From the NCBI GenBank assembly GCA_013791885.1, contig VMSZ01000025.1, positions 1 through 35,702 of the forward strand: a stretch of DNA of 35,702 bases, read 5' to 3'. The notes under the pieces were generated by a model, which had not been told where the DNA came from, made no database searches, and saw only the letters and a list, made by a program, of their open reading frames with translations. Numbering within the stretch: the first letter of the stretch is position 1; each line of letters opens with the position of its first letter. Of this stretch, positions 13,748-27,091 are shown piece after piece. The stretch comes from Sulfurimonas sp. Its GTDB lineage: Bacteria; Campylobacterota; Campylobacteria; Campylobacterales; Sulfurimonadaceae. Position numbers and translations under genes: made by a program.

Positions 13748-13761
13748 TTGATTTACGTCAA
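13748..13761 (+). promoter_or_regulatory. Crp/Fnr-type operator TTGATTTACGTCAA upstream of the monohaem cytochrome
   Basis: A 14-bp palindromic site TTGAT-N4-GTCAA, one base from the classical FNR consensus. A TACTAT -10 box (13784-13789) is centred 32 bases downstream, which puts the operator near -41.5, the class II activator position. The same motif precedes three other transcription units in this window. Confidence 0.75.
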
Positions 13762-13811
13762 TAATCACTTTCCAAATTCCTGCTACTATCTACACAATAA
13801 AAAGGTTTAAA

Positions 13812-14234
13812 ATGAAAAAAATATTTGTTCTCACGTCTCTTATGAGTGTTCTGGCGTTTACACAGCTAAGTGCTGTGGATGGTTATGAGGTTTACAAGTC
13901 GAAATGCTCGCAGTGTCATATTGAAAATATTTCAAAGGCAGATGTAGTGAAAAATTTTGCAAAAATGAAAGCGCCTCCAATGGTTGAAGTTGCCAACCAA
14001 GTCAAAGGAAATATTATAATCGGTGATGATGACGACGACGTTCATCGTCATGTGGTGAAGCTTTTTATTAAGGACTATATTGATAATCCGCTTCTTGATA
14101 AAAGCATGTGTAACCCTATGGCCTTGGAGAAGTTCGGTGTTATGCCATCGCAAAAAGGCAAACTTACCGCTGATGAAAAAGAAGCTGTTGCCGAGTGGAT
14201 TTATGATAGATATGATGGTGTGAAGTTTCAATAA
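13812..14234 (+). CDS. Monohaem c-type cytochrome, periplasmic
   Basis: A 140-residue secreted protein with a signal peptide (MKKIFVLTSLMSVLAFTQLSA, cleavage near residue 21) and one haem-binding CSQCH at residues 32-36. A methionine in FGVMPS near residue 115 is a candidate sixth ligand. An acidic run GDDDDDVHRH sits at about residues 74-83. It is probably an electron carrier or small sensor cytochrome in the periplasm; the partner is not evident from sequence. It has its own FNR-like promoter and is followed 17 bases later by a hemerythrin gene, so the two are likely co-transcribed and induced under low oxygen or nitrogen oxides. Confidence 0.88.
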   Translation: MKKIFVLTSLMSVLAFTQLSAVDGYEVYKSKCSQCHIENISKADVVKNFAKMKAPPMVEVANQVKGNIIIGDDDDDVHRHVVKLFIKDYIDNPLLDKSMCNPMALEKFGVMPSQKGKLTADEKEAVAEWIYDRYDGVKFQ

Positions 14235-14251
14235 AATTTATAGGACGGATT

Positions 14252-14692
14252 ATGTTATTAGATAAAAATGAGATGCCAATTGTCGCTATGGAGTTTATGA
14301 ATGATGTGCATGCGCAGGACATAGAGATAATTAATGCCCTCTATGAGTTGGTTTTGGCATACGAATCAGAACCGACACAAGAGAACAAGAAGGCTTTGAA
14401 CAGTCAATACAATCTATGGTTTGAGCATACTATAGAACACTTTAGAGGGGAAGAAGTTTTGATGGTTGAGAAAAGTTTCCCTCCCTATCCTATGCACAAG
14501 GGAGAGCATGACAAAGCCCTTGCAGTAATGGATGATGTCTATAGAGCTTTTGAGGCTACAAGTGACATAGTAATGATGAAACAGTATATTTCCCAAACAG
14601 TGCCGCAATGGTTTGTGCAGCATATACAGAGTATGGATACAGTAACAGCGATGTTTTTTAAATCGGGACTTAGCCCTTGTTCTATGAGATAA
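14252..14692 (+). CDS. Bacteriohemerythrin
   Basis: A 146-residue single-domain hemerythrin. All di-iron ligands are visible: H20, H63, E67 (EHFRGEE), H82 and H86 (HKGEHD), H124 and D129 (HIQSMD). There is no signal peptide or membrane segment, so the protein is cytoplasmic. The family binds O2 reversibly and some members bind NO; roles as oxygen store, oxygen scavenger or NO handling are known of the family and cannot be told apart here. It follows the monohaem cytochrome under the same FNR-like promoter and an AGGACGG ribosome-binding site precedes the ATG. Confidence 0.92.
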   Translation: MLLDKNEMPIVAMEFMNDVHAQDIEIINALYELVLAYESEPTQENKKALNSQYNLWFEHTIEHFRGEEVLMVEKSFPPYPMHKGEHDKALAVMDDVYRAFEATSDIVMMKQYISQTVPQWFVQHIQSMDTVTAMFFKSGLSPCSMR

Positions 14693-14725
14693 GTAAGAGT
14701 ATTCTAAACCTCTGCTCATAATCTG

Positions 14726-14768
14726 AAGTTAAGATGCAGTGCCTGTGCCAATAACTTAGCTTTTTTTT
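14726..14768 (+). terminator. Probable terminator after the hemerythrin gene
   Basis: AAGTTA (14726-14731) pairs with TAACTT (14752-14757) and an eight-base T run follows at 14761-14768. The loop is long (20 bases) and includes a possible inner stem, so the hairpin is only moderately convincing. It lies between convergent genes. Confidence 0.45.
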
Positions 14769-14772
14769 GAGA

Positions 14773-15201
14773 TTAGTTGTAGCTGTAACTCCAGCCCGTA
14801 AGACTCTCTATTTTTGCTTCATTATAGTTATCGGAATCTGCTAAAAAATCCATAACATGCATAACAGCATACGGAATGCTTCTTTGGTCTTCAGGTTTGA
14901 CCAGAAGAAGTGGCATAGGAGTGTCTTGAAGACTTTGGGAAAAGCCTACGGGCATAAGTTTACTCATAAGTTCTGCCGGTTTTTTTATTTTATTCTCATC
15001 TAAAAATTTATCTAAAATTGCTGCTTGAACATCTTGAGGAAGTTCTTCTGACGTGTTTAAAAATATAGTAAAGTGTATAGGCGTATCTTTAAAATGAGTA
15101 GGGGCAGGTGCCGCCATAAGAATGTACTCTACATTTTCGAGATGTTTTGATATCTCTATGGGTTCAAAATATTTATCTGTTTTTATTGCGTTTGCTTGCA
15201 T
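14773..15201 (-). CDS. Conserved-looking protein of unknown function, divergent from cytochrome c553
   Basis: I do not recognise this 142-residue soluble protein. I start it at the ATG at 15201 (MQANAIKTDK) because an AAAAGGA ribosome-binding site precedes it; the frame extends 11 codons further without one. It has no signal peptide, haem motif or cysteine cluster. Visible stretches are EYILMAAPAPTHFKDTP and a C-terminal SLTGWSYSYN. It is transcribed away from the cytochrome c553 gene, with a TATAAT box on the minus strand at 15224-15229. A 15-codon copy of its 5' end survives at 15752-15799, showing that this gene was partly included in a tandem duplication. Confidence 0.7.
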   Translation of the reverse strand: MQANAIKTDKYFEPIEISKHLENVEYILMAAPAPTHFKDTPIHFTIFLNTSEELPQDVQAAILDKFLDENKIKKPAELMSKLMPVGFSQSLQDTPMPLLLVKPEDQRSIPYAVMHVMDFLADSDNYNEAKIESLTGWSYSYN

Positions 15202-15266
15202 GGTAGTCCTTTTGTAAATTGTAATTATACTCAAGAAGAATTTACAGGAGATTAGTTTTTTGAAAG

Positions 15267-15280
15267 TTGATATAAGTCAA
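15267..15280 (+). promoter_or_regulatory. Crp/Fnr-type operator TTGATATAAGTCAA upstream of cytochrome c553 copy 1
   Basis: This has the same TTGAT-N4-GTCAA form as the site at 13748. The likely -10 box TAAAAT (15303-15308, within TATAAAAT) is centred 32 bases downstream, again the class II geometry. The site lies between divergent genes and is about 55 bases from the minus-strand transcription start, so it could also affect the unknown gene at 14773-15201. Confidence 0.75.
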
Positions 15281-15335
15281 AGCTTTTAACATGTAATCAT
15301 TATAAAATTTGTCTGTTCAATATATGGAGAGAAAT

Positions 15336-15632
15336 ATGAAAAAAGTTTTACTGGCAGGTGTGGTTGTCCTTGGTTTATTTTCAAATGTGTGCGCAGAAGA
15401 TGGTGCGGCTCTTTACAAAAAGTGTGCATCTTGTCATGGACAAGCAGGTGAAAAAGTTGCTTTGGGAAAAAGCAAAATCATTAAAGATATGTCAGAACAA
15501 GAAATCGTCGCTGCAATGAAAGGTTACCAAGACGGTTCATACGGCGGACCAATGAAAGGCCTTATGAAAGGTCAAGTTGCTTCTTTAAACGCAGAGCAAA
15601 TCGAAGTTATAGCAAAACATATAGCAAAGTAA
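15336..15632 (+). CDS. Cytochrome c553-type monohaem cytochrome, copy 1
   Basis: A 98-residue small periplasmic electron carrier. Signal peptide MKKVLLAGVVVLGLFSNVCA, haem motif CASCH, and methionines in GGPMKGLMKG that can provide the axial ligand. The C-terminal helix ends IAKHIAK. The ATG at 15336 has a GGAGAG ribosome-binding site; an upstream TTG at 15309 would disrupt the signal peptide. Family members carry electrons from the bc1 complex to periplasmic reductases or oxidases. It is the left copy of a tandem duplication (the partner is 15921-16217), with intact promoter and FNR-like operator. Confidence 0.92.
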   Translation: MKKVLLAGVVVLGLFSNVCAEDGAALYKKCASCHGQAGEKVALGKSKIIKDMSEQEIVAAMKGYQDGSYGGPMKGLMKGQVASLNAEQIEVIAKHIAK

Positions 15633-15639
15633 CTTCTTC

Positions 15640-15661
15640 TCCACCAGCTTCGTTTGGTGGA
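15640..15661 (+). terminator. Stem-loop after cytochrome c553 copy 1
   Basis: A 7-bp perfect stem TCCACCA / TGGTGGA with an 8-base loop lies 7 bases after the stop. No T run follows, so it may stabilise the mRNA or terminate poorly. The equivalent hairpin in copy 2 keeps pairing through a compensatory A-T to G-C change. Confidence 0.5.
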
Positions 15662-15667
15662 TGATTC

Positions 15668-15720
15668 AAGCAGTATAGAAAAAGTCCTCCAAAAGTCTGA
15701 TTCAAAGCACTATACTGCTT
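15668..15720 (+). repeat. 11-bp inverted repeat between the two cytochrome copies
   Basis: AAGCAGTATAG (15668-15678) is perfectly complementary to CTATACTGCTT (15710-15720), separated by 31 bases. A TTTACTCACTTTATAATTTT segment follows. It could be a second, larger terminator hairpin or a protein-binding inverted repeat. Only the left arm has a counterpart after copy 2. Confidence 0.55.
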
Positions 15721-15751
15721 TACTCACTTTATAATTTTAGAAAATCACTCT

Positions 15752-15799
15752 TTAGACGGGTTCAAAATATTTATCTGTATTTATTGCATTTTTTTTCAT
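15752..15799 (-). pseudogene. Micro-ORF left from duplication of the divergent unknown gene
   Basis: On the minus strand ATG at 15799 opens a 15-codon frame, MKKNAINTDKYFEPV, ending in TAA at 15752. It matches the first residues of the 142-residue gene (MQANAIKTDKYFEPI) and is also preceded by a similar GTAATTATGCTC-type upstream region. It is the truncated copy created at the duplication edge. Whether the peptide is translated is unknown. Confidence 0.75.
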
Positions 15800-15852
15800 A
15801 GTTATCTTTTGTAAATTGTAATTATGCTCAAGAAGATTAATTTATGTGAAAT

Positions 15853-15866
15853 GTGATATGAATCAG
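15853..15866 (+). promoter_or_regulatory. Degenerate Crp/Fnr-type operator upstream of cytochrome c553 copy 2
   Basis: GTGATATGAATCAG aligns base for base with the intact operator of copy 1 but differs at the outer base of each arm and carries ATCA in place of GTCA. The -10 candidate TAGAAT (15889-15894) is centred 32 bases downstream. Binding is probably weaker or of different specificity. Confidence 0.55.
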
Positions 15867-15920
15867 GAATTATTTTATGCAAAAATGATAGAATGTTTGT
15901 ATCAAAATCAGGAGAATAGT

Positions 15921-16217
15921 ATGAAAAAAGTTTTATTGGCAACAGTAGTTGCTCTTGGCATGTTTACGAGTTTAAACGCAGATGACGCTGCAACACTTTA
16001 TGAGAAATGTGTAATATGCCATGGTAAAGCAGGCGAGAAGGTAGCTTTAGGCAAAAGCAAAATAATCAAAGATATGTCTCAGGCAGATTTTATCGCTTCA
16101 CTTAAAGGGTACCAAGACGGTTCATACGGCGGAGCTCAAAAAGGGCTAATGACGGCACAGGTTAAATCTCTTGATGATGCTCAAATAGAAGCTATTGCTA
16201 AACATATAGTAAAATAA
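15921..16217 (+). CDS. Cytochrome c553-type monohaem cytochrome, copy 2
   Basis: A 98-residue paralogue of the cytochrome at 15336. Signal peptide MKKVLLATVVALGMFTSLNA, haem motif CVICH, and C-terminal IAKHIVK. The PM of copy 1 (GGPMKGLM) is replaced by AQ (GGAQKGLM), so if the axial ligand is shared it must be the methionine of GLM. The ATG at 15921 has an AGGAGA ribosome-binding site 6 bases upstream; the frame extends 25 codons further but that part is duplicated promoter DNA. Periplasmic electron transfer is the expected role, with altered redox partner or potential possible given the changes around the haem. Confidence 0.92.
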   Translation: MKKVLLATVVALGMFTSLNADDAATLYEKCVICHGKAGEKVALGKSKIIKDMSQADFIASLKGYQDGSYGGAQKGLMTAQVKSLDDAQIEAIAKHIVK

Positions 16218-16224
16218 TCTTCCC

Positions 16225-16250
16225 TCCGCCAACTCTGCTTGGCGGATATT
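16225..16250 (+). terminator. Probable terminator after cytochrome c553 copy 2
   Basis: An 8-bp perfect stem TCCGCCAA / TTGGCGGA with a 6-base loop is followed by TATTTT. It starts 7 bases after the stop codon. It is the counterpart of the hairpin at 15640. Confidence 0.65.
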
Positions 16251-16343
16251 TTAAGCAGTAAGAGTAAAAAAACCTCCAAATACCAGATACAGAGTGTTGT
16301 ACCGCATCTCTTTCATCTAAGAACCAGCATAGGAAAAAGTATT

Positions 16344-16979
16344 ATGAATGTAAAAGATTTTTATATGTTTCGGGATCTTTCCGGTGACTTGGTGAAGGTT
16401 CTTGAATCAAAAATTATGAAACACAAGTATGAAAAGGGGAGTATAATTTTTTACAGCGGAGACAGTTCACAGAATCTCCGCATACTGGCAAAAGGAATGG
16501 TGAAACTTTATAAGCATAACTCGAATGGGGAAGAGTTAGTTTTGCATTATTTTAAAAATCAATCTCTTTTAGGTGAAATGGCAACTTTTGAAGATATTCC
16601 TTACCCTGCGAACGCAATTGCCGAAACAAGTTGTGATATCTGGACTATTAAAAAAGAAGATTTTATTGCCTTGCTTGAAGCAACTCCCAAGCTTGCACTT
16701 CAGATTATAACTTCTATGGGTATGAAAATTAAAATGCTTGAAAGCAGTATTGATTTAAACATCTCAAAAAATTCTATGCAAAGAGTGGCATCACTCATGT
16801 TAAATACAATTGAGATATTTGATGAACTCTCAAGGATTAAAATATCTGCAATTCTTAACATGACGCCTGAGACGCTCTCTCGCAGAATTCAACTTTTAAG
16901 ACAAGAGGGCGCAATAGAAGTAGTAGGAAAAAAAATCATTATTCAAGATAGAACACTTCTTAAAAAATATCTCGAATGA
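16344..16979 (+). CDS. Crp/Fnr-family transcriptional regulator
   Basis: A 211-residue regulator. Residues about 10-125 form a cyclic-nucleotide-binding-type beta-roll (EKGSIIFYSGDSSQNLRIL, LLGEMATFED); after the long dimer helix a winged helix-turn-helix carries MTPETLSRRIQLLRQEG. The E-x-x-S-R in the recognition helix is the FNR signature for TTGA half-sites. FNR's N-terminal cysteines are absent (one Cys in the protein), so it does not carry the FNR 4Fe-4S cluster; haem, NO or another ligand is possible. I start at the ATG at 16344 with AGGAAA 7 bases upstream. An in-frame TTG at 16239 lies in the preceding terminator stem and adds 35 codons unlike the family. It is a candidate reader of the TTGAY-N4-GTCAA sites. 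Confidence 0.9.
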   Translation: MNVKDFYMFRDLSGDLVKVLESKIMKHKYEKGSIIFYSGDSSQNLRILAKGMVKLYKHNSNGEELVLHYFKNQSLLGEMATFEDIPYPANAIAETSCDIWTIKKEDFIALLEATPKLALQIITSMGMKIKMLESSIDLNISKNSMQRVASLMLNTIEIFDELSRIKISAILNMTPETLSRRIQLLRQEGAIEVVGKKIIIQDRTLLKKYLE

Positions 16980-17005
16980 AATTATTTAAAGAGTAATTAC
17001 TTCAG

Positions 17006-17314
17006 TTATAAGCCGCTGCTGAGTTGGCGTTTTACATCTTCTGTGGCCATGCTTATATTCCAAACAGGTTCCCAAACAACTTCTGCTGCTGCGTTTTGTG
17101 CATTTGGAAGCTCCCTTAAGACGGCTTCTTCTACCCATTGAACTATCATTTGGTGCAGTGGACAAGCTTGCGTACTGAGCGTCATTATAACTTTAACATT
17201 TCCGGCTTCATCACAGTTTGCATCATAAATAAGCCCCATTTCTACGAGATTAAATCCGACTTCAGGGTCATTTACCGTTGAGACTGCTTTAAATATTTCA
17301 TTTTTTGTGTACAT
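17006..17314 (-). CDS. MIP18/DUF59-family protein (PaaD/SufT-like)
   Basis: A 102-residue single-domain protein of the MIP18 (DUF59) family: DPEVGFNLVEMGLIYD and VIMTLSTQACPLHQMI, the latter holding the conserved cysteine. Family members help assemble or deliver iron-sulphur clusters (SufT, PaaD, eukaryotic MIP18). A cytoplasmic role in maturing a metalloprotein of the same operon or region is inferred. It is the last gene of a three-gene minus-strand operon, 3 bases after the membrane protein gene, with its AAGGAT ribosome-binding site over that stop. Confidence 0.85.
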   Translation of the reverse strand: MYTKNEIFKAVSTVNDPEVGFNLVEMGLIYDANCDEAGNVKVIMTLSTQACPLHQMIVQWVEEAVLRELPNAQNAAAEVVWEPVWNISMATEDVKRQLSSGL

Positions 17315-17317
17315 AAT

Positions 17318-18550
17318 TTATCCTTTAAAATTAATCATAAAAAGTATGTCTTTAAGTAAAAACAGAGCACTCATTAACATGAAGCTAAGCCCAGCCAAGT
17401 AAATTTGTTCCAGTTCAAACGCAATGGCAAGAGCTACGAGAACAAAACCGGTGACATTGTAAAAAAACAACAAAGCAGAACTTTTTTTTGGAACCATCTC
17501 TGCGAGCATAGGAACTTTTTCTTTTCCGACAAGCGGGGCAAATCGCTCAAACCAGATAAGAAAAGGAATTATTTTATAAAAATGGCCTAAAATCAGAGAA
17601 CCCAAAACGCCATAGAACATGACAAAACCAAGTAAAAGAAGAACTTGATTGGCTGTGGAGAAAAAATAAAAAATACCAAGAAAAAGGCTCATAAGTAGAG
17701 AAACGCTGAAAAATAGCAAATAGTAGTAATAGATATCTTTTTTAACTCGGGCTCTTGTTTTATAGATGAGATACAACTCGTATGCATAGAGACAAAAGGC
17801 AAGCAGTAAAAGACCATAGCCCAGGTCACTGAAAAGTGCATAAGAGTACTCTCCCAGAGAAACAAAGAAAATTGCCGCAGACAAAAAATACAAAGAGTAT
17901 TGTAAAAATCTTTTATCAAAAGAGTGTGAGAGCCAAAACATAGGCACCAAAATGTAACTCATGCCTATAATACTAAAACCCACATAGCCATATAAAACCA
18001 GATATATATGGATATTTAAGAGTTTGTTTACATCTACATCTATAAATCCGCTGTATCCAAACGCCATAATGAGTCCGACTATGACGCCTAGAAGTAAAAA
18101 AATATTTGCGAGCAAAACCGCGTAAAATGAGAAATTGAGCTTTTTTGCTTTTGAAATGGTGGCAAAGGTTTCAGCCAAAAAGATTAAAAATGAGATGAAA
18201 ACGATAACACCGCCAAAAGATAAAAGAACGGGAGTGTTGTAAAATCCGAGTACCATTAAAAGTGTTCCGATAAAAAGCAGGGGGTAGATTGCATAATAAA
18301 GCTCTACAGCAAAATGCTCAACTTCAAGAACAACGGGCACAAGTTGTGCCATAGCTCCAAATATTGACATCATGACAAAGCCAAGCAGCATGAGATGCAC
18401 AAACGCGAGAGTATTGTTCCCAAGTGTGTGCATTGTTGAGATATCAAAGCTAAAAAGAAAAATTACAGTAGAGAAATAGACTAACACAGCCGTAATAAAA
18501 TAGGGTGCTACAAGTCTAAAAGGGGGCGCAAACTGCTGAGAGATATTCAT
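17318..18550 (-). CDS. Polytopic membrane protein resembling haem-copper oxidase subunit I / NnrS
   Basis: A 410-residue integral membrane protein with about 12 hydrophobic segments. Histidines sit within membrane helices at FVHLMLLGF, NIHIYLVLYGYVGFSIIG and LGHFYKIIPFLIWF. This recalls haem ligands in haem-copper oxidase subunit I or the NnrS family linked to nitrogen-oxide metabolism. The six-histidine and cross-link pattern of a true oxidase or NO reductase is not evident, so catalytic activity should not be assumed. It sits between a DUF2249-like and a DUF59 gene in an operon with an FNR-like operator, suggesting a job in denitrification or NO tolerance. The family name is uncertain; the membrane topology and histidines are what I see. 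Confidence 0.6.
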   Translation of the reverse strand: MNISQQFAPPFRLVAPYFITAVLVYFSTVIFLFSFDISTMHTLGNNTLAFVHLMLLGFVMMSIFGAMAQLVPVVLEVEHFAVELYYAIYPLLFIGTLLMVLGFYNTPVLLSFGGVIVFISFLIFLAETFATISKAKKLNFSFYAVLLANIFLLLGVIVGLIMAFGYSGFIDVDVNKLLNIHIYLVLYGYVGFSIIGMSYILVPMFWLSHSFDKRFLQYSLYFLSAAIFFVSLGEYSYALFSDLGYGLLLLAFCLYAYELYLIYKTRARVKKDIYYYYLLFFSVSLLMSLFLGIFYFFSTANQVLLLLGFVMFYGVLGSLILGHFYKIIPFLIWFERFAPLVGKEKVPMLAEMVPKKSSALLFFYNVTGFVLVALAIAFELEQIYLAGLSFMLMSALFLLKDILFMINFKG

Positions 18551-18558
18551 CGCTGCGT

Positions 18559-18888
18559 TTAACCGTTACAACTGTTTTGACTAAAGTCCGTTGTTTGGTC
18601 GGCATTGTGTTTTTTAGTAAAAACAACTTTTACGCGTCCATCGCCAAGATTGCTCTCTTCAAAATCAAACTCTGCTTCGATTTTTGGAAAAAGGCCGCCG
18701 GGTGATTTGTGGTTTATCATAACAAGTTTGCTGTTTTTATCAAGGAGTTGGAGACCTAGCATTGCGTTTACCATAGGTTCGGGAGGAGGAGTGGCACTTG
18801 TGTCAAAAGTGTAAACTGTCACACCGTCGATATTTTCTTTAAAAAAAGGAACTGTCGCTCCCTGTACTTCTATTTGATTGTTTTGCAT
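18559..18888 (-). CDS. Small DUF2249-like protein
   Basis: A 109-residue soluble protein. The segment PPPEPMVNAMLGLQLLDKNS followed by LVMINHKSPGGLFPKIEAEF resembles the DUF2249 core, which adopts a small alpha/beta fold similar to TusA/SirA and is often found beside hemerythrins and denitrification genes. A function is not established. The C-terminus holds a lone Cys (NSCNG). It is the first gene of the operon; the start ATG at 18888 is preceded by an AAGGGAAA ribosome-binding site and by an FNR-like operator and -10 box. Confidence 0.65.
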   Translation of the reverse strand: MQNNQIEVQGATVPFFKENIDGVTVYTFDTSATPPPEPMVNAMLGLQLLDKNSKLVMINHKSPGGLFPKIEAEFDFEESNLGDGRVKVVFTKKHNADQTTDFSQNSCNG

Positions 18889-18944
18889 CGTATTTCCCTT
18901 GTGTTGCGTTTGTGGTAGTTTATACTATTGTGCATAGTTAAACA

Positions 18945-18958
18945 TTGACAAACGTCAA
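18945..18958 (-). promoter_or_regulatory. Crp/Fnr-type operator TTGACAAACGTCAA upstream of the DUF2249-like operon
   Basis: A perfect palindrome of the form TTGAC-N4-GTCAA. On the minus strand a TATAAA box (18924-18919) is centred 30 bases away, again class II spacing. It controls the three-gene operon 18888-17006. Confidence 0.75.
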
Positions 18959-19002
18959 CAAAAGGGGAAATTATTGAGTAGTTCACATTACGTATTTTTT
19001 CT

Positions 19003-19023
19003 CCCCTATCCGACAGATAGGGG
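19003..19023. other. Stem-loop CCCCTATC / GATAGGGG
   Basis: A perfect 8-bp stem with a CGACA loop. No T run lies on the 3' side on either strand, so it is not a standard terminator. It is the first of four hairpins between the nap operon end and the DUF2249-like operon. Confidence 0.5.
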
Positions 19024-19057
19024 TAGCTTTAGGGGGTTGTAGGTGAAAAGCGTTCTG

Positions 19058-19082
19058 AAAAATCCAACTGCTTGGATTTTTT
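19058..19082 (-). terminator. Probable terminator of the nap operon
   Basis: AAAAATCCAA and TTGGATTTTT form a perfect 10-bp stem around a CTGC loop. The outer A/T runs make it work in either direction; on the minus strand it ends the nap operon about 85 bases after its last stop codon. Confidence 0.7.
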
Positions 19083-19097
19083 AGCTGTGGAACCAGA

Positions 19098-19119
19098 GGC
19101 TATATGCGCAAGCATAGCC
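19098..19119. other. Stem-loop GGCTAT / ATAGCC
   Basis: A 6-bp stem around ATGCGCAAGC, where inner GC pairs may also form. It lies between the nap terminator and the 19133 hairpin. Confidence 0.4.
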
Positions 19120-19132
19120 GCCGGCGTCCCTG

Positions 19133-19162
19133 CTACGAAAACGGACGAGTTCGTTTTCGTAG
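19133..19162 (-). other. Long stem-loop directly after the last nap-operon gene
   Basis: CTACGAAAACG (19133-19143) and CGTTTTCGTAG (19152-19162) form a perfect 11-bp stem with an 8-base loop. It stands a few bases beyond the stop of the 93-residue gene. It may terminate transcription together with the hairpin at 19058 or protect the mRNA 3' end. Confidence 0.6.
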
Positions 19163-19167
19163 TCGCA

Positions 19168-19449
19168 TCAATTAGTAAGAGATTCACCTTTTTTCTTTTC
19201 TATTTCTGCTTGATGGGCAGCCATCTCAAGTCGTATTTCATCCATGACATGGGGTGGAACATTCGCGTCTTTGCTCCATCTTACTTCATCGATGTGACCG
19301 CCGTAATCACTTCCAAAATCTTCAACTTTCTGAGAATACTCATCGAGATTCAGACAAAACGCAACTCTGCCGTCTCCTGTGTCTTTAAGTTCGATAAACC
19401 ATTGCCCGTTGTCGTCTATTTTAATGATTGATTCAAAAACTACGCTCAT
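19168..19449 (-). CDS. Small protein of unknown function, last gene of the nap operon
   Basis: I do not recognise this 93-residue soluble protein. It is acidic, with SVVFESIIKIDDNGQWFIEL, a stretch rich in D/G (EDFGSDYGGH) and a charged C-terminal helix (AAHQAEIEKKK). It has no signal peptide and a single cysteine. It starts 2 bases after the napD stop, so it is co-expressed with the nitrate reductase genes and may assist assembly or regulation. Continuous reading frame, tight spacing and hairpins after the stop argue for a real gene. Confidence 0.7.
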   Translation of the reverse strand: MSVVFESIIKIDDNGQWFIELKDTGDGRVAFCLNLDEYSQKVEDFGSDYGGHIDEVRWSKDANVPPHVMDEIRLEMAAHQAEIEKKKGESLTN

Positions 19450-19451
19450 AT

Positions 19452-19841
19452 TTACTCTTTGTGTGTCGCATTAAAAGTTTGGGCAAAGCCTTCTAAATCT
19501 TTCTTTTTCAAATCCCCGTTGTAAACAATATCTGCAGGATCAATTGTGTCATCATTTAACATTTTAGGCACAACATCACCGTTGTTGATAACTTCCATGT
19601 GTGCGTCAAGCTCATCTTCGCTGTATGCCATCTGCATATCAGCCGACATAACATGCGGGATGCCTTCAACAACTCGGAGTTTTTTGAGCTCTTCTTCTAC
19701 ACCTTCACCCTCAATAGTGATAATGATTCTTCCCTTTTCATCATGGAAGTGGTAATCACAAACCTCACAGTTTTTTAAACTCTCAACAACTTCATCTATG
19801 TATTTTGGCAGTGTTTGTACTACTATGCTTGAAATATTCAT
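19452..19841 (-). CDS. napD: NapD, chaperone for NapA maturation
   Basis: NapD binds the Tat signal peptide of NapA and holds it in the cytoplasm until the cofactor is inserted. I start at the ATG at 19841 with an AAGGAAAA ribosome-binding site; the frame extends 38 codons upstream with unlikely, overlapping sequence. The 129-residue product shows MNISSIVVQTLPKYIDEV and a ferredoxin-like beta-alpha-beta pattern through HVMSADMQMAYSEDE. About 40 residues after the core (NNGDVVPKMLNDDT onward) are longer than E. coli NapD. Its position near the 3' end of the operon is typical for Campylobacterota. Confidence 0.85.
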   Translation of the reverse strand: MNISSIVVQTLPKYIDEVVESLKNCEVCDYHFHDEKGRIIITIEGEGVEEELKKLRVVEGIPHVMSADMQMAYSEDELDAHMEVINNGDVVPKMLNDDTIDPADIVYNGDLKKKDLEGFAQTFNATHKE

Positions 19842-19869
19842 TTTTATTTTCCTTAATTCTTTATTTTGA

Positions 19870-20313
19870 CTATTCGTATGTAACTGTTCTGGTTTTTTCA
19901 CCGTTTTCTTTGCGCATTTTATCATACAACCTTTGGTGTTCGAGCTTTTGCTCAAAGGTGATAGGCGTTCGCAAAGATTTGTACTCTACCAAAACGCCGT
20001 CTTTGTAGACGCCGGAGATAATAGCGTGAACCCAGTAAAAGCCTTTGTCTTTGCGGAGATTTTTGACGATTCCGCTCCACTGCTTTTCCTCTTTTATAGT
20101 GAGCCATAACTCTTTAAAAACTACACTAGGCATATCCGGATGTCTTACAAGGCTGTGAGATTTTCCGATGAGTTCCGCTTCTGTATAACCGCTGATTTCA
20201 CAAAAAGTTTCATTCGCATAGGTAATTATCCCTTGAAGATTCGTTCTTGAAATAATAAGTTCATCTTCTGGAACAACAGTCTCTATTAAAAATTCCGATT
20301 CATTGTACTGCAT
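19870..20313 (-). CDS. Single PAS-domain protein inside the nap operon
   Basis: A 147-residue soluble protein made almost wholly of one PAS domain (about residues 15-125): NLQGIITYANETFCEISGYTEAELIGKSHSLVRHPDMP, then WSGIVKNLRKDKGFYWV (quoted in parts). It is most like the PAS domain of Aer-type aerotaxis receptors, which bind FAD, including the HPDMP segment. It lacks a membrane anchor, kinase, GGDEF or MCP output, leaving only a short C-terminal helix (about 128-147). It lies between napL and napD with an AGAGGTGA ribosome-binding site. A redox-sensing partner for chemotaxis receptors or for a regulator is possible; this is inference. Confidence 0.85.
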   Translation of the reverse strand: MQYNESEFLIETVVPEDELIISRTNLQGIITYANETFCEISGYTEAELIGKSHSLVRHPDMPSVVFKELWLTIKEEKQWSGIVKNLRKDKGFYWVHAIISGVYKDGVLVEYKSLRTPITFEQKLEHQRLYDKMRKENGEKTRTVTYE

Positions 20314-20322
20314 ATTTCACCT

Positions 20323-21270
20323 CTATTTAATTTTATATAAATTAATGACTTTGTCGTCACTTGACACTAAAAATTCATCTTCATTTAAAAACAAAATATT
20401 TGTCGGCGTCATTTTGTTCCCGCCATAACGGGTCAGCTCTTTTTGCGTTTGTCTTTCAAAAAGTGTAATGTTGTTGTGCTCATCACTTGAAAAAGCCACA
20501 AGATTAGCACTTGGTGAGAGACCAACAGAGTAGACGAGAAAGCCGGATGTTTTGTAGTATGCTGAGCCAGTTTTTTGGTTGTATACAACAACACGTCTGT
20601 CTTGTCCTGCGGTGACGATAATGGAGTTTTTATTTTGAACCTGAAAAACATTGTCAAGATTTTGGCCTTTGAGCGTTTTTAAAAGTTTTGCATCTTTAAG
20701 AGAGTAAATTTTCAAAGCTCCGCTTTCATCTGCAACAACCACTTCATCTTTTTTTTCATTAAGTGCAAAGTTGGAAAATTTTGACTGAGAGACTTGAAAT
20801 TGATAGTTTATTGCTTTTTTATCTATGTCATACGAGATGAGTTCGTTACTTAAAAGTGCTAAAAGAAGCGTGTTTTCGTCAATGAACTTGGCCTTTGCAA
20901 TTGAAAGCATCTCGCTTGATGCAATAAGAAGCTTCGTTTTGTTGTCAGAATGAATGTACACTTGCGCAAAACCGGAATTTCCTTGAGATAAAATCAAAAC
21001 TTTCTCTTTCAAAACATCGACGGAATAAATCTTTGCCTCTATCTTGTCGCCCATAAAGTCGGTAATTTTTTCTACCTCAATTTTAGAGAGCATATCTTTT
21101 GTATTGATATCAAAAATGTCTACACATCCGGCATCTGTTGCGCTATAGAGTTTATTCTCTGTGAAAACGATATCTCGCACTCCACCGCTTGCATTAAAGC
21201 TTGCAATAGGCATTTTGAGAGAACCAGCAAAGAGAGATGAGATAAAAAAAATTAAGAGCAAAATTTTCAC
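20323..21270 (-). CDS. napL: NapL, periplasmic beta-propeller protein
   Basis: NapL is an accessory protein of Campylobacterota nap operons with uncertain function. I start at a GTG at 21270 overlapping the napF stop (GTGA); this gives a 315-residue protein beginning with a signal peptide (KILLLIFFISSLFAGS). The longer frame would run through napF in another phase. The mature part shows WD40/YVTN-type repeats, for example VRDIVFTENKLYSATDAGCVDIFD, EVVVADESGALKIYSL and IIVTAGQDRRVVVYN. Order after napF matches known napFL pairs. Confidence 0.85.
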   Translation of the reverse strand: MKILLLIFFISSLFAGSLKMPIASFNASGGVRDIVFTENKLYSATDAGCVDIFDINTKDMLSKIEVEKITDFMGDKIEAKIYSVDVLKEKVLILSQGNSGFAQVYIHSDNKTKLLIASSEMLSIAKAKFIDENTLLLALLSNELISYDIDKKAINYQFQVSQSKFSNFALNEKKDEVVVADESGALKIYSLKDAKLLKTLKGQNLDNVFQVQNKNSIIVTAGQDRRVVVYNQKTGSAYYKTSGFLVYSVGLSPSANLVAFSSDEHNNITLFERQTQKELTRYGGNKMTPTNILFLNEDEFLVSSDDKVINLYKIK

Positions 21271-21758
21271 GACAAAGCCTTTATATCTATTGCATAGCTT
21301 GGACATCTGCTGATGCAAAATCCGCATGCGGTACATTTTAATGGGTCTATGAGCGGCATAAACATAGCACGAAATTCTATAGCATCTTCCAAACAAGGGT
21401 CTTTACATGAAAAACACATAACGCCGCTCCAACTCAAACAAGTAGCTTGGTTGATTGTGACATCTGCGTTTATCAGTTGTTTATTTTCAATTTTTAGAAC
21501 GCCGAATTCACACGCAGTAGCGCAATCATCGCAGTAGGTGCAACCACTTTTTAAGAAATCAAGAGAGGGCGTTTTGTCGGCGTTAATGATAATAATCTGC
21601 TCTTGGCACAAAGCGGCGCACTTGCCATCGCATTTCTGACATTCTGTGTCAAATGCAGATATATTACCAAAATAAGGCGGACGAATCAACAAACTCTCTT
21701 GCTTTTGCTCTGTTTTAAACGATGAAGCAAGAGAGCCAAAAAGCTCTCTTCTATTCAT
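21267..21758 (-). CDS. napF: NapF, iron-sulphur accessory protein
   Basis: A 163-residue cytoplasmic ferredoxin-type protein implicated in NapA maturation. Four cysteine groups are visible: C40/C43/C47/C51, C73/C76/C79/C83, C107/C115/C118/C122 and C142/C145/C148/C152, so up to four 4Fe-4S clusters could bind, the first being irregular. It begins MNRRELFGSLASSF, like other NapF proteins. It lies 5 bases after napB and overlaps napL by 4 bases. Confidence 0.9.
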   Translation of the reverse strand: MNRRELFGSLASSFKTEQKQESLLIRPPYFGNISAFDTECQKCDGKCAALCQEQIIIINADKTPSLDFLKSGCTYCDDCATACEFGVLKIENKQLINADVTINQATCLSWSGVMCFSCKDPCLEDAIEFRAMFMPLIDPLKCTACGFCISRCPSYAIDIKALS

Positions 21759-21763
21759 AAGTT

Positions 21764-22453
21764 TTAGTGGCCTCCGCCGTCAAGATGACCAGCTTTAGAG
21801 TCGCTGTTATCCAAATCATTTGCTGTTACTTGTGAGTCGCCGCCTATAATTGTGTTGAGTCCGTCTGTTAACTTAGAACCACTCCATGTAGACTTGTTCG
21901 CACCGTCTTTATCTGTATACTGTGCTTGAAAGTTATTCTCAACAAGTTGCCCGTCACTTTGAGGAGCATGACATTGAGAACAGTTAAATCTGGCACCTGC
22001 AAGTGCGTCGAGTTTTTTGATAGATATATCGTTTTTCATAGTATCTGCAGGTAGTTTAAACTCTTTTCCATCATACGTCGGATGCGGTCTAAAGTCTGTA
22101 AAGTGTGAAGCCGGAATAGGCGTTGCACCCATATCTGCTGCAACTTCGGGCATATGACAACTTACACACTGATTGTCATTGATAGTAATTGGCAACATTC
22201 CTTCCACATCATGTGGAATCATCGGCGGAGCATCCTGAAATGCTCTTTTTATTTTTGTACTCGTTCCTGCTGTATCTGTCGCGTAGCTTGTTTTACTAGC
22301 AACAGTATCTGACTCTTTACTTAAAGATGTCTTTCTGAGTCCTAAAGACTCTTCACTAATACTCGGAGTTACTGTACTTGCAGCATAGAGTGAACTCGCC
22401 ATCAAAAGTGCTGCAGCTCCAAAGGCAAGTGTTATCTTAGTTATTGTTTTCAT
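21764..22453 (-). CDS. napB: NapB, dihaem cytochrome subunit of nitrate reductase
   Basis: NapB is the periplasmic electron-donating subunit of NapA. It has a signal peptide (through SSLYAA, about residue 25) and two haem sites, CVSCH (96-100) and CSQCH (158-162), with PMIPHDVEG before the first, as in the family. At 229 residues it is longer than E. coli NapB (about 150): there is a Ser/Thr-rich stretch after the signal peptide (about 27-70) and a roughly 45-residue polar tail after the core ending HLDGGGH. The ATG lies within the 3' end of napH (17-base overlap), where GGGAGAAG provides the ribosome-binding site. Confidence 0.93.
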   Translation of the reverse strand: MKTITKITLAFGAAALLMASSLYAASTVTPSISEESLGLRKTSLSKESDTVASKTSYATDTAGTSTKIKRAFQDAPPMIPHDVEGMLPITINDNQCVSCHMPEVAADMGATPIPASHFTDFRPHPTYDGKEFKLPADTMKNDISIKKLDALAGARFNCSQCHAPQSDGQLVENNFQAQYTDKDGANKSTWSGSKLTDGLNTIIGGDSQVTANDLDNSDSKAGHLDGGGH

Positions 22454-23282
22454 TTTCTTCTCCCAATTTTTTATTCTGAGCTAATTTTCTAATAGAAAAT
22501 CCTAAAGCATCATCATCGCAGACCTCAATACATCTGGCACAGTTTGTACACTCGCCGGATAATACAGGTAAACTTTGTTTTCCAACCATATGGAGTACTT
22601 GATGTTCAGGACAAACTACTTTACATTTCATACATAAAGTACAATTCTCTTCTGTATGATGTACTCTAATGAGACTGAAATTCCCAAGTAAAGAGTAAAA
22701 TCCACCAAGAGGACATACATGTCCACACCATCCATTTTTTAAAACAAACAGATCAAAAAGAAAAATTATAAGTATCGCAGCCCAACCAAAACCCAGGCCG
22801 AATATAATTCCTCTGTGTACCATAGCAATAGGCGAGATAAACTCAAACGCAGTTACTCCCATCATAAACGAGATTATGAGGCTTAAAGCTAAAACCCAAT
22901 ATCTCATTTTTCTAGAGACAGATTGTCTGCTTGGCAGAGTATCTACACCTATTTTTCTTCTTAAATAATTTGCTGCGTCTGTAATCATATTTACAGGACA
23001 AACCCAGCTACAAAAGATGCGTCCGCCTAGTACAAGATAAAACGCAGTAATAATCCCAGCTCCAATGAGCAAGTTCATTGCCAAAACTCCGCCTGCAAAC
23101 AGCATTTGCAATACTGCATAAGGATCACTCAGCGGAACCAAACCAAAAACAAGAGATGAACTCAGGTTCCCTTGAAGTATTTTCCATCCCCAAGCATTCG
23201 CTCCGAAATATAAAAATAACAAGCCAATCTGAGTCACTCTTCTTAAAACAAGGTATCTATAACTGTTCCATAGAGTTTTCAT
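22437..23282 (-). CDS. napH: NapH, membrane iron-sulphur quinol dehydrogenase subunit
   Basis: NapH with NapG oxidises membrane quinol and feeds electrons to NapB in bacteria lacking NapC. The 281-residue protein has four membrane segments (about 15-35, 60-85, 128-150, 160-182), two CxxxCP motifs (CSWVCP at 91-96, CGHVCP at 186-191) and two 4Fe-4S motifs near the C-terminus (CTLCMKCKVVCP at 214-225, CTNCARCIEVC at 245-255). Its ATG overlaps the napG stop (TAATG). Confidence 0.95.
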   Translation of the reverse strand: MKTLWNSYRYLVLRRVTQIGLLFLYFGANAWGWKILQGNLSSSLVFGLVPLSDPYAVLQMLFAGGVLAMNLLIGAGIITAFYLVLGGRIFCSWVCPVNMITDAANYLRRKIGVDTLPSRQSVSRKMRYWVLALSLIISFMMGVTAFEFISPIAMVHRGIIFGLGFGWAAILIIFLFDLFVLKNGWCGHVCPLGGFYSLLGNFSLIRVHHTEENCTLCMKCKVVCPEHQVLHMVGKQSLPVLSGECTNCARCIEVCDDDALGFSIRKLAQNKKLGEENENNN

Positions 23283-24070
23283 TAGTATAAATCCTCAGAA
23301 TCATTTAAAGAATCTACAGCGCTATCTTTACTTATTTCTGTCGTTGTTGTTTTGGAAGTTGCGTTTTCTAAACGTTTTTCATCTTCCTTATCCCAACCTT
23401 TAATGTAATAATCACCAGCACGACCAAGTGCAGTTTCTCTAGGAAGCACAAAAATAGATGCTTTTTCAGTTACACAAGCTCTCTCACAAAGTCCACATCC
23501 TGTACATACATCACTATCAACTATAGGTTTCATAAAAGCATGCTTGCCGGTACGCTCATTTTTTGAGTACTCAATTGTAATTGCAGTTCCCAAAAGTGGA
23601 CAAGCTCTGTAACATGCATCACATTGTATACCCCAAAACGCTATACAGTTTTTGGAATCTACAACGGCTACACCCATGTCTGCAATGTTTATGTCAAGTT
23701 TGCCGTCTGTCGTAACACTTGCCGCATCAAGAGCCCCCGTTGGACAAACGGGAACACAAGGAATATCTGTACACATATAACAAGGTACATCTCTTGGAAT
23801 AAAATAAGGTGTTCCAAGAGGTTTGTTATCACCCGGCTTTGCAAGCAATAGCGTATCAAACGGACAGGCTTCAACGCATAGGCCGCATTTGATACAGGTA
23901 GATAGAAAATCGTCCTCTTTAATTGCTCCGGGAGGACGAAGAAGCAGTGTTGATGCTGTTACTTCATCAACGTACGCACTCCAAACTAATCCACCCACAG
24001 CGGCTAGGCCTACGCCTCTTGCCATGTTTAAAATAAATTTTCTTCTATCACTTATTACTTGTTTTTTCAT
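23282..24070 (-). CDS. napG: NapG, periplasmic iron-sulphur quinol dehydrogenase subunit
   Basis: A 262-residue Tat-exported ferredoxin partner of NapH. The N-terminus carries a twin-arginine motif, DRRKFILN (residues 8-15), followed by a hydrophobic stretch. Four 4Fe-4S motifs follow: CIKCGLCVEACP (59-70), CYMCTDIPCVPVCP (97-110), CIAFWGIQCDACYRACP (142-158) and CTGCGLCERAC (189-199). A Ser/Thr/Asp-rich tail (about 235-262) is variable. It begins 5 bases after napA and is joined to napH. Confidence 0.95.
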   Translation of the reverse strand: MKKQVISDRRKFILNMARGVGLAAVGGLVWSAYVDEVTASTLLLRPPGAIKEDDFLSTCIKCGLCVEACPFDTLLLAKPGDNKPLGTPYFIPRDVPCYMCTDIPCVPVCPTGALDAASVTTDGKLDINIADMGVAVVDSKNCIAFWGIQCDACYRACPLLGTAITIEYSKNERTGKHAFMKPIVDSDVCTGCGLCERACVTEKASIFVLPRETALGRAGDYYIKGWDKEDEKRLENATSKTTTTEISKDSAVDSLNDSEDLY

Positions 24071-24075
24071 GTTGC

Positions 24076-26889
24076 TTACGCTTTATAAATTTTTACAGCA
24101 CATTTTTTAAAGTCTGTCTGTTTTGACTGTGGACAGGTTGCATCTAAACAAACTTTGTTAATGAATACTTTTTCATCAAACCAAGGTACGAAAACAAGTC
24201 CGCGTGATGGTCTGTTTCTTCCTCTTGTCTCAACTCTTGCTTTTACTTTACCACGGCGAGATTCAACCCAGCAAAGTTCCCCTTGTTTTACATCATAAGT
24301 TTTTGCATCTTCTGGGTGCATGTAACATAATGCTTCAGGCACAGCGCGATAAAGTTCAGGTACACGCATTGTCATAGTTCCAGAGTGCCAGTGTTCAAGC
24401 ACACGACCTGTACTTAACCATACCGGATATGCAGTATCTGGCATTTCTGGTGGATCCATGTACGGACGCGCAAATATTTTGGCTTTATTGGCAAGACCGG
24501 TTTTTTCTTCTTTTGTAACGCCTCTTAAGTCACCAAACGGAAGTGCTTTCGCAAGTGTTCCGTAGAATGCGTGTGAATTTCCGCTTTCTTTTGTAGCTTT
24601 TGCAGCATATGGATCGTACTGCGCATTAAATCTCCATTGTGTTTCTTTACCATCAACAACAGGCCATTTAAGTCCACGAACTTTGTGATAAACATCAAAC
24701 GGAGCTAAGTCATGACCATGACCGCGACCAAACGCAGCATACTCTTCAAAAAGGTATTTATGAATGAAGAAGCCATAGCCTTTAAATACTTTACCGTCAC
24801 TGCCTACGACATTTCTTTTATCTCCATATCCTTCAGTATTGTCATAGCCTTTTTGGATTGGATCATTTTGGTCAAGTTTGTAAGATTGTGCAATTTTGTT
24901 GGCAAATAAAATCTCATACATTGTAGTGTCTTCAGTGTATCCCATAGCTTTTGCTTTTGGAATCATATCTTCAAGCGCTTCTTTTCTTGGACCGCTTGGA
25001 GCATAAGAACCCCATACATCTTTAACTGTAAATCTTTTTGACAACTCAACCCATTGCCAAGTATCACTCATGGCATCACCTACAGGAAGAACTTGTTGTC
25101 TCCAGTGCTGCGTACGACGCTCTGCGTTTCCGTATGCGCCCCATTTTTCATAAATCATAGCCGATGGCAAGATAAGGTCTGAAACTTTTGCAGAGATACC
25201 AGGGTATCCGTCAGAAGTAACAATAAAGTTGTCCATCTCACGAGCAGCTTTAATCCAGTGTGTTGCACTTGCAGTATCTTGGTATGGATTACAAACATTT
25301 ACCCATGCAAATTTAATAAGACCGTCTTCAATATCTCTGTGGATTTTCATAATGTCTTGAACACCAACGGCGTTGATTGTTCCCTCAGGAACCATCCATT
25401 TATTCTCAACAATTTTTCTATGTGCCGGATTTGCAACCATCATGTCCGCAGGCAAGCGGTGTGTAAATGTTCCAACTTCTCTGGCTGTTCCACATGCCGA
25501 AGGCTGTCCTGTAAGAGAAAATGCTCCGTCACCCGGTTTTGCTTGTTTGTTTAGTAGAAAGTGAACATTGTACGCAAGCGTATTAACCCATGTACCACGT
25601 GTATGTTGGTTCATACCCATAGTCCAGAAACTTACAACTTTTCTATTTTTTTCTATATATAAATCCGCTAGCGTTTGAAGTTTTTTCTTAAACTCATTGA
25701 TATCTTCATCAGGGTTACCTTTTGAAATGCTTGCAACATAATCAAGTGTATATGGCTCCAAGAATTTTTTGTAATCATCAAAAGAAATTTCCCAGTGTGC
25801 AAGGCCTGCATTTTTATTTACCATCATATCGCCTTCTTTATAGCCATATGGCGCTAAAGCAGGTGCTTCTGTAGCAGAAACCGTTTTTTGCATCTCTTTA
25901 GAGATAATTTCCATCTCTTTGTCAGTATATTTGCCTTCTTTTACGGACTTTTCGTCACTTCTTCTCATACCATAGCCCATATTTACAGGACTTGCTGCAA
26001 AAACGATATGTTTTTTTACGAAATCCCAATCAATAGATTCCGGATTATTGTAAACAATTTCACGAGCGATATAGTTCCAAAGTGCAAGGTCAGTATTTGG
26101 TGTGAAAATAATTTCTATATCTGCCAAGTCTGAAGTTCTGTGTCTATATGTTTGAATAGAGATAACTTTTACACGCTCAGGATCTGAGAGTTTTCTGTCA
26201 GTTACGCGTGACCAAAGAATAGGGTGCATCTCAGCCATATTTGAACCCCAGGCAACAACCGTGTCTGTAAGTTCAATATCGTCGTAACAGCCAGACGGCT
26301 CATCAATACCGAATGTTTGGTAAAAACCGACAACAGCAGAAGCCATACAGTGACGTGCATTTGGATCAAAGGCGTTAGAACGGAAACCGCCTTTCATTAG
26401 TTTTTGAGCCGCATAGCCTTCCATAACGGTATATTGCCCAGAGGCAAAAACACCGACAGCTTCAGGACCGCCGGATTTTAGTGCTTTTTTGATGTTGAGT
26501 TCCATTTCATCAAAAGCTCTTTTCCAGCTTACAGGTGCAAATTTTCCATTTTTATCAAAGTTTCCTTTGGCATCAACTCTAAGTAAAGGTTGCGTTAATC
26601 TGTCTGCACCGTACATAATTTTTGCATTAAAATAACCCTTGATACAGTTTAAACCTCTATTTACAGGTGCTGCCGGGTCGCCTTTAACTGCTACAATTTT
26701 CCCATCTTTTGTAGCCATCATAATTCCACAGCCGGTACCGCAAAAACGGCAAGCTGCCTTGTCCCATCTCCAATTCGCCTCAGCTTCGTTTGCGGCTGCT
26801 TGCACATTGCTCGGTACTGCCATACCCATCGCTGCTGCTGCAGATGCTGCTGCTGAGCTTTTAAGAAATTCTCTTCTTGAAAGTGACAT
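24076..26889 (-). CDS. napA: NapA, periplasmic nitrate reductase catalytic subunit
   Basis: NapA reduces nitrate to nitrite in the periplasm using Mo-bis-MGD and one 4Fe-4S cluster. The 937-residue length matches Campylobacterota NapA. A Tat signal (SRREFLK at 4-10) is followed by cluster cysteines C47, C50, C54 and C82 ([16 protein letters not shown]) and the molybdenum-ligand C181 in NARHCMAS. The C-terminal molybdopterin-dinucleotide-binding region includes [18 protein letters not shown] strong GAGGAG ribosome-binding site precedes the ATG. It is the first gene of the operon napA-G-H-B-F-L-PAS-D-unknown, driven by an FNR-like promoter; there is no napC. Confidence 0.98.
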
Positions 26890-27003
26890 GTTATCTCCTC
26901 TATGATCATTTTTTTAAAATTTAGCAACTACTAAAATTACTATTTTCAACGCCGCCTAAATTCTATTACGGCTAAATGGTATCACTTTGGGGGATTAAAA
27001 TCT

Positions 27004-27017
27004 TTGACTTAGGTCAA
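27004..27017 (-). promoter_or_regulatory. Crp/Fnr-type operator TTGACTTAGGTCAA upstream of napA
   Basis: A perfect TTGAC-N4-GTCAA palindrome 115 bases before napA. On the minus strand the -10 candidate TACCAT (26981-26976) is centred 32 bases away, giving the class II position. It leaves a nap leader of about 80 bases with no obvious structure. Confidence 0.75.
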
Positions 27018-27068: not shown

Positions 27069-27091
27069 CCAGTAGCGTTAAATGCTACTGG
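27069..27091 (-). terminator. Stem-loop at the end of the PilJ-like sensor gene
   Basis: CCAGTAGC and GCTACTGG form a perfect 8-bp stem around a 7-base loop; the stop codon of the sensor gene (27080-27078) lies in the loop. A short TTTT follows on the minus strand after GGGCAG, so it is a plausible but weak terminator separating this operon from napA. Confidence 0.55.

Follow-up and report, generated by a model that had tools for sequence, protein, structure and literature searches.

Four predicted Crp/Fnr operators with one promoter geometry upstream of nitrate respiration and accessory genes in a Sulfurimonas genome

Regulons of this type, in which Crp/Fnr activators govern nitrogen-oxide respiration, are already known in Campylobacterota. 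In Wolinella succinogenes, NssA, NssB and NssC upregulate the nitrate, nitrite and nitrous oxide (N2O) reductases (Kern and Simon 2016, as related in passages of PMC6682613, PMC8139620 and PMC11539149), and in Nitrosophilus labii HRV44 exact TTGA-N6-TCAA sites begin 48-49 bases upstream of the predicted starts at napA, norE and nosB, according to an excerpt of PMC11539149. How Nss-type regulators sense nitrate, nitric oxide (NO) and N2O needs further study (PMC8139620, in excerpt). Here we analysed a 35,702-nt stretch of Sulfurimonas sp. DNA (GenBank assembly GCA_013791885.1, contig VMSZ01000025.1; hereafter the window), in which four similar sites had been noticed from the sequence alone, and compared its promoters with those of related genomes. 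The four sites are very probably operators of Nss/DNR-type Crp/Fnr activators of nitrate respiration and accessory genes, and are predicted from sequence to be the local part of a wider regulon. We observed directly the sites, their fixed 22-nt spacing to a -10 hexamer, their reappearance ahead of orthologues and their surplus relative to controls, and from these we infer binding, activation and the identity of the binding protein.

All four sequences were found exactly where the earlier note had placed them: before the cytochrome c and hemerythrin genes (TTGATTTACGTCAA, 13748..13761, plus strand, -10 TACTAT at 13784-13789), before a c553-type cytochrome (TTGATATAAGTCAA, 15267..15280, plus strand, -10 TAAAAT at 15303-15308), before the DUF2249/COX1-like/DUF59 operon (TTGACGTTTGTCAA, 18945..18958, minus strand, -10 TAAACT at 18917-18922) and before napA (TTGACCTAAGTCAA, 27004..27017, minus strand, -10 TACCAT at 26976-26981). 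They are the only places in the whole window that match TTGAYNNNNRTCAA exactly. When read in gene direction, all four carry GTCAA as the promoter-proximal arm, as had been claimed, and the distal arm is TTGAT or TTGAC. Candidate -10 elements had been put at 30-32 bases from the site centres; a -10 at one spacing is indeed present, but the range proved unnecessary, as a TANNNT hexamer starts exactly 22 nt past the site in 4/4 promoters, giving a centre-to-centre distance of exactly 32 in each. By established promoter numbering, a site centred at -41.5 would occupy -48 to -35 and its hexamer -12 to -7, which is the class II arrangement, and the fixed 22 nt would be compatible with an operator centre near -41.5. 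Since the TANNNT definition was picked after inspection of the four window promoters, independent testing falls to the footprints in relatives.

We therefore examined the upstream regions of orthologous genes, using the best 30 family-search matches per gene (a selected rather than random sample, with the own genome included for the four window operons). The COX1-like set was extended by 12 loci of named records, including records labelled Sulfurimonas, Arcobacter, Aliarcobacter and Campylobacteraceae, and apparently holds one genome twice (L040 and L070), and one napA and one NirDL locus were dropped because they had no upstream sequence. Exact sites were present at 33/42 usable COX1-like loci, 26/29 napA, 15/30 cytochrome and 15/30 c553 loci, and, for two genes reached via the regulon, at 24/30 loci of nosZ and 27/29 loci of the haem-d1 gene NirDL. 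A TANNNT hexamer lay at 22 nt in 33 COX1-like, 21 napA, 14 cytochrome, 11 c553, 24 nosZ and 26 NirDL cases, the runner-up spacing over the six sets being 25 nt before nosZ (17 cases), and at the c553 loci all exact sites start 64-70 nt ahead of the aligned start. The COX1-like proteins of relatives share 35-73% identity with the window protein, suggesting that selection, rather than recent descent, has preserved these promoters. Across 41 genomes of the genus (the own genome included), the composite of operator, spacer and hexamer occurred 271 times, compared to 27 for the same pattern read backward. Together with the footprints of the four promoters and the N. labii sites (PMC11539149, in excerpt), this supports the proposal of a Crp/Fnr-type regulon with class II geometry that ties unknown genes to nitrate respiration. 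The regulon can no longer be called purely local, as the earlier note had it, since the same promoter type stands before nosZ, the haem-d1 gene and others in relatives.

Two Crp/Fnr genes named in the earlier note lie among these operators and fall in two different clades: crp16 (16344..16979, plus strand, helix TPETLSR) and crp28 (28087..28749, minus strand, helix QPETLSR). In a tree of 48 rows, with several long branches flagged, a branch of 100/100 support splits 15 rows, which hold crp16 and most regulators beside COX1-like operons, from 33 rows, which hold crp28 and stand mostly beside napA or nosZ. The helix reads TPETLSR in 10 of the 15 rows, and QPETLSR (15) or QPATLSR (18) in the 33-row group. 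In the PDB, the 28087 protein is matched best by DNR (3dkw, E 6e-7). Genes of crp28 type carry an exact site within 300 nt in 13/30 loci, 7 of these with the hexamer at 22 nt. At the window promoters a regulator dimer would bind TTGAY-N4-RTCAA centred at -41.5, overlapping the -35 position, and would recruit RNA polymerase to the TANNNT element at -12 to -7 (class II activation). At napA the 28087 product would be the most likely to bind, and the 16344 product would be the likelier regulator of the adjoining DUF2249/COX1-like operon.

An A-for-E helix was considered as a mark of nos-side regulators and dropped, as QPATLSR also occurs in eight nap-side rows (L162, L164-L170). Separately, operators in genomes with QPATLSR regulators of the 28087 clade (18 rows, e.g. 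L146-L151, L162, L164-L170) keep the TTGA/TCAA core.

FNR proteins of the iron-sulfur type hold a 4Fe-4S cluster by four cysteines. It is improbable, if the most durable of the rival explanations, that the operators serve an oxygen-sensing FNR or another Crp/Fnr protein, such as a third one encoded on contig C62, with the local regulators acting elsewhere. TTGA-N6-TCAA is the FNR-type core too, and the own genome does encode three HTH_Crp_2 proteins, in a census by PF13545 alone that could miss other Crp/Fnr types. Two of the three, however, sit among these operators and carry the E-x-x-S-R helix, and with 1 cysteine (16344) or 2 (28087) neither is an FNR-type iron-sulfur sensor; nor does the C62 protein resemble one, having SVRTVISR in place of E-x-x-S-R and a single cysteine near its C-terminus. 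Less credible still is an HcpR-like regulon: the motif predicted for HcpR in several deltaproteobacteria and cyanobacteria, TTGACnnnnGTCAA, has half-sites identical to those of two of the four operators, but relatives of the window promoters also use TTGAT and ATCAA, and the targets found for them are nap, nos and haem-d1 genes.

As for chance, in 1000 first-order Markov simulations matched to the window in length and composition, places matching TTGAYNNNNGTCAA averaged 0.26 per sequence, and 4 were reached in 1/1000. The composite (TTGAYNNNNRTCAA, 22 nt and TANNNT) averaged 0.021 with a maximum of 2, whereas the window holds 5, rather than 4, because the 15267 site reads both ways. That short palindromes merely happened to fall near weak -10-like hexamers in A+T-rich intergenic DNA can be dismissed almost outright, for although bare and one-mismatch sites show little or no enrichment (below), the observed composite count was matched in 0/1000 simulations and the genus-wide excess and the single dominant spacing in orthologous promoters stand against it. 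In the 2.52 Mb genome there are 8 distinct TTGAYNNNNGTCAA places, and 4 of them cluster within a 13.3-kb part of the window (probability about 6.5e-5 for 8 uniform points), but the bare site was no commoner than its reversed control. The signal resides in the cluster and the promoter architecture rather than in the bare site. With one mismatch allowed, the composite gave 28 matches in the own genome against 13 for the control.

Several observations weigh against the sites being more than chance or against reading them as operators of an Nss/DNR-type regulon. Genome-wide, strand matches numbered 13 for the bare site and 16 for its reversed control, and 3 of the 4 TTGAYNNNNGTCAA places outside the window lie inside open frames of >150 codons. 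Allowing one mismatch, the 14-bp pattern occurs 14 times in the window where 9.05 are expected, a weak enrichment that 5/100 shuffles reached. Half of the cytochrome and half of the c553 orthologue loci lack an exact site, and the relatives in the footprints share descent and are not independent. In the window, no exact operator stands directly before 16344 or before the gene row 28751-27078, and 4/30 crp28-type genes have no neighbour with a PilJ domain, like that of crp28 described below, within the stretch examined. Finally, the own genome, which is 99.99% complete, lacks nosZ and NirDL, and so it retains only a portion of the regulon found in its relatives.

The innermost bases of the operator (given as left arm fifth / right arm first) differ between genes. 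At nosZ they were C/G in 20, T/A in 3 and C/A in 1 (n=24), at napA C/G in 14, C/A in 8, T/A in 2 and T/G in 2 (n=26), at NirDL C/G in 0, T/A in 17, C/A in 9 and T/G in 1 (n=27), at COX1-like loci T/A in 22, C/A in 4, T/G in 4 and C/G in 3 (n=33), and at cytochrome loci T/A in 8, T/G in 6 and C/G in 1 (n=15). Promoters of nosZ are thus mostly TTGAC-N4-GTCAA and those of the haem-d1 gene nearly always ATCAA-ended; the inner base is retained across differing N4 spacers. Within single genomes, nosZ had G and NirDL had A as the promoter-proximal base in 19/21 genomes (reverse 0, p 3.8e-6), and nosZ had G and the COX1-like gene A in 13/17 (reverse 0, p 2.4e-4), p-values that overstate independence because the genomes are related. 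The window's COX1-like operator is C/G, although T/A or T/G is found at the loci whose proteins are closest to the window's (L040/L070, L069, L074). GTCAA, which the earlier note had set apart from the FNR-type ATCAA, does not hold as a fixed specificity, since orthologous operons in relatives often carry ATCAA and the base depends on the gene.

A clean C/G class including napA was not supported within genomes: napA and NirDL gave G/A in 3, the reverse in 0 and the same base in 7 of 10 (p 0.25), napA and COX1-like 1, 1 and 5 of 7, and nosZ and napA 6, 1 and 2 of 9 (p 0.125). We also considered that Gln or Thr in the helix (QPETLSR or TPETLSR) reads the inner base, an idea weakened by DNR, which has IQPETFSR and the motif TTGATnnnnATCAA; the operator classes cannot be put down to the helix alone.

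Directly after crp28, on the same strand, lies a gene for a membrane protein with a PilJ domain (PF13675) and no other Pfam domain, a candidate nitrate receptor (INIAGKQRMLTQ, 27078..28085, minus strand). A PilJ homologue adjoins 26/30 crp28-type genes, always on the same strand. In Pseudomonas aeruginosa McpN, as reported in excerpts of PMC6381276, Gly58, Ala59 and Met62 contact nitrate, Arg61 hydrogen-bonds it and an R61A protein did not recognise nitrate. The 27078 protein keeps the nitrate-contact G, R and M, with K replacing the A of Ala59. Over the 26 homologues, the P-box reads AG-x-x-R-M in 18 and N-x-Q-K-(A/T) in 7, L149 giving no letters. Among the AG-x-x-R-M rows, 15/18 share a contig with napA and are no more than about 7 kb from it, and the remaining 3 are on contigs with no napA match; 6/7 N-x-Q-K-(A/T) rows adjoin nosZ, and the seventh, L148, is on a different contig from its nosZ. 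Judged from the gene order, the 27078 product may signal to that of 28087, and, as this neighbour has a PilJ domain with McpN's Gly, Arg and Met, periplasmic nitrate would be the likeliest input at napA. A description of a PilJ partner for the nap-side regulator was not found in the open-access literature searched.

Taken together, these patterns raise a possibility that we hold tentatively and would sooner bet against: a two-letter operator code on one promoter frame, combined with a kinase-free PilJ nitrate receptor that drives the nap-side Crp/Fnr regulator and a nos-side receptor that answers another signal. In such an arrangement the TTGA/TCAA core and the 22-nt spacing would be fixed and the inner pair would set the sub-regulon, TTGAC..GTCAA denoting nosZ (and often nap) and TTGAT..ATCAA the haem-d1 and DUF2249/COX1-like genes. 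The nos-side paralogous pair would have a receptor changed from G to N, R to K and M to A or T, whose loss of the nitrate contacts suggests that it might respond to a different signal. At the Campylobacteraceae locus L075, one C/G operator (TTGACTTAGGTCAA, TAGAAT at 22 nt) stands ahead of c553, DUF2249, COX1-like and DUF59 genes in a row, with a regulator of the crp28 clade and then a PilJ gene 1-2 kb beyond, so that two window operons and the window's regulator pair are joined at one place. This single locus fits the view that the regulator sets the operator arms. Its operator also reads two ways, like the window's 15267 site.

The gene contents beside the four sites agree with their earlier description in family scans, the name c553 being the earlier reader's own. 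The first site precedes a c-type cytochrome (Cytochrome_CBB3, 13812..14234, plus strand) and a hemerythrin domain protein (14252..14692, plus strand), both from the family scan, and the second precedes the first copy of the c553-type cytochrome (Cytochrom_C, 15336..15632, plus strand, scanned with the longer start 15309). A second copy at 15921-16217 is 68% identical to the first, and upstream of it lies a decayed operator that keeps the 22-nt TAGAAT (GTGATATGAATCAG, 15853..15866, plus strand, 2 mismatches; locus L039, which starts at window position 15821). The 15267 operator also reads divergently as TTGACTTATATCAA, with TAAATT at 15239-15244 on the minus strand at the 22-nt spacing, toward a gene at 14773-15234 that matches no Pfam family; one operator may serve two promoters here.

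On the minus strand, the third site governs, by prediction, a DUF2249 protein (18559..18888, below the Pfam cut-off, E 1e-5), a membrane protein of 12 helices that folds like the catalytic subunit of haem-copper oxidases and NO reductases (17318..18550, its COX1-like match below the Pfam cut-off) and DUF59 (FeS_assembly_P, 17006..17314). The fourth stands before the nap cluster (19452..26889, minus strand: napA, napG, napH, napB-like, napF-like, beta-propeller, PAS and napD, with napB-like and napF-like below the NCBIfam cut-off). Catalytic subunits of haem-copper oxidases and NO reductases have six conserved histidine ligands. The model of the COX1-like protein (predicted local distance difference test score 84.6, from 11 sequences) matched a cbb3 oxidase subunit with Z 32.8 over 383 residues and an NO reductase with Z 32.4 over 376 residues, at 13% identity, and four histidines (52, 181, 209 and 323) are invariant in the 11 sequences. 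The protein has a haem-copper-oxidase fold in the model, with a ligand set that looks incomplete, and an NO reductase, which the fold would fit, was set aside as only four histidines are invariant; any part in NO handling or electron transfer is speculative. DUF2249 domains have been linked to nitrate respiration or denitrification in Thermus (DrpA/DrpB) and Haloferax, and the excerpts of PMC6282519 and PMC11218638 make no link to this operon.

In the own genome outside the window, one of the one-mismatch composites, at G000:C26:71710 (L025; ATGACTTGCATCAA with TATAAT at 22 nt), lies 71 nt ahead of the start codon of a MoaA-type gene (Radical_SAM and Mob_synth_C), a plausible regulon target because NapA needs the molybdenum cofactor. 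A one-mismatch operator with TATAAT precedes a multi-PAS protein (G000:C59:25151, L031), and an exact composite lies within an SPL-like open frame, 394 nt before nnrS (G000:C20:47213, L010). The latter may be coding sequence. Because relatives have comparable stretches, it could reflect either coding constraint or a promoter for nnrS within the frame.

Downstream genes were surveyed in nine genomes, where 80 of the 83 matches among those listed were fetched (2 of the 3 omitted being the COX1-like promoters L051 and L054) and the first open frame downstream was taken as the target; seven matches yielded none, and some matches are one operator read both ways. The targets clustered into nosZ (8), NirDL (8), a membrane protein of 108 residues (8), a small protein resembling a lipoprotein (6, three at a distance of roughly 400 nt), DUF2249/COX1-like (4), napA (4), a primase-like gene, which we take to be such from its sequence (4), and NnrS (3), the remainder being pairs or singletons that included globin-like, hemerythrin, cytochrome, HPP and other genes. 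The names nosZ, NirDL, hemerythrin, cytochrome and HPP rest on a Pfam scan of one member each (globin-like fell below the cut-off), and NnrS was named via its homologue in the own genome. In two target pairs (aminopeptidase-side and NnrS-side) the site lies within the coding frame. Just upstream of the primase-like gene, in L225 (G125:C104), L243 (G113:C59) and L266 (G099:C60), an operator precedes an open frame of 43 residues that begins like a signal peptide and has the conserved tail KPNHPxxxxY, near 143-275 in gene direction; this frame was not found in L212, and L227 has one of 61 residues with a similar tail.

To summarize, four sites spotted by eye now define a conserved type of promoter for which Campylobacterota can be scanned, and the uncharacterised DUF2249/COX1-like/DUF59 and cytochrome and hemerythrin genes are placed in a nitrogen-oxide programme. 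The recurring pair of crp28-type regulator and PilJ protein, whose nitrate-contact residues persist on the nap side and are gone from the nos side, opens the question of Nss sensing to direct tests, and what deserves testing is this receptor pair together with the operator classes.

Among the systems known to us, the W. succinogenes NssA/NssB/NssC set is alike in comprising Crp/Fnr activators of nap, nrf and cnos in Campylobacterota with the core TTGA-N6-TCAA, as far as the cited excerpts describe it; the window's targets add the cytochrome and hemerythrin genes and the DUF2249/COX1-like/DUF59 operon. N. labii HRV44 similarly has Crp/Fnr sites at napA, norE, nosZ and nosB and regulator genes upstream of its nap and nor clusters, described for one species from sequence and RNA-seq coverage (excerpts of PMC11539149); half-sites that depend on the gene do not appear in those excerpts. 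P. aeruginosa DNR resembles the 28087 protein in its IQPETFSR helix and denitrification regulon, but has the motif TTGATnnnnATCAA, whereas window-type operators often have TTGAC and GTCAA arms (PMC1274295, in part). Campylobacter jejuni NssR is an Nss-type Crp/Fnr protein of the same phylum with globin targets, to judge from the title of Elvers et al. (cited in parts of PMC8139620 and PMC11539149), and the relatives' targets include a globin-like gene below the Pfam cut-off; it differs in that an excerpt of PMC8139620 reports that NssR sites were not identified upstream of nap. Lastly, McpN (PDB 6gcv; PMC6381276, in excerpt) shares with the 27078 protein the PilJ domain and the nitrate-contact Gly, Arg and Met, while the latter adjoins a Crp/Fnr gene, has Lys for Ala59 and carries no further Pfam domain.

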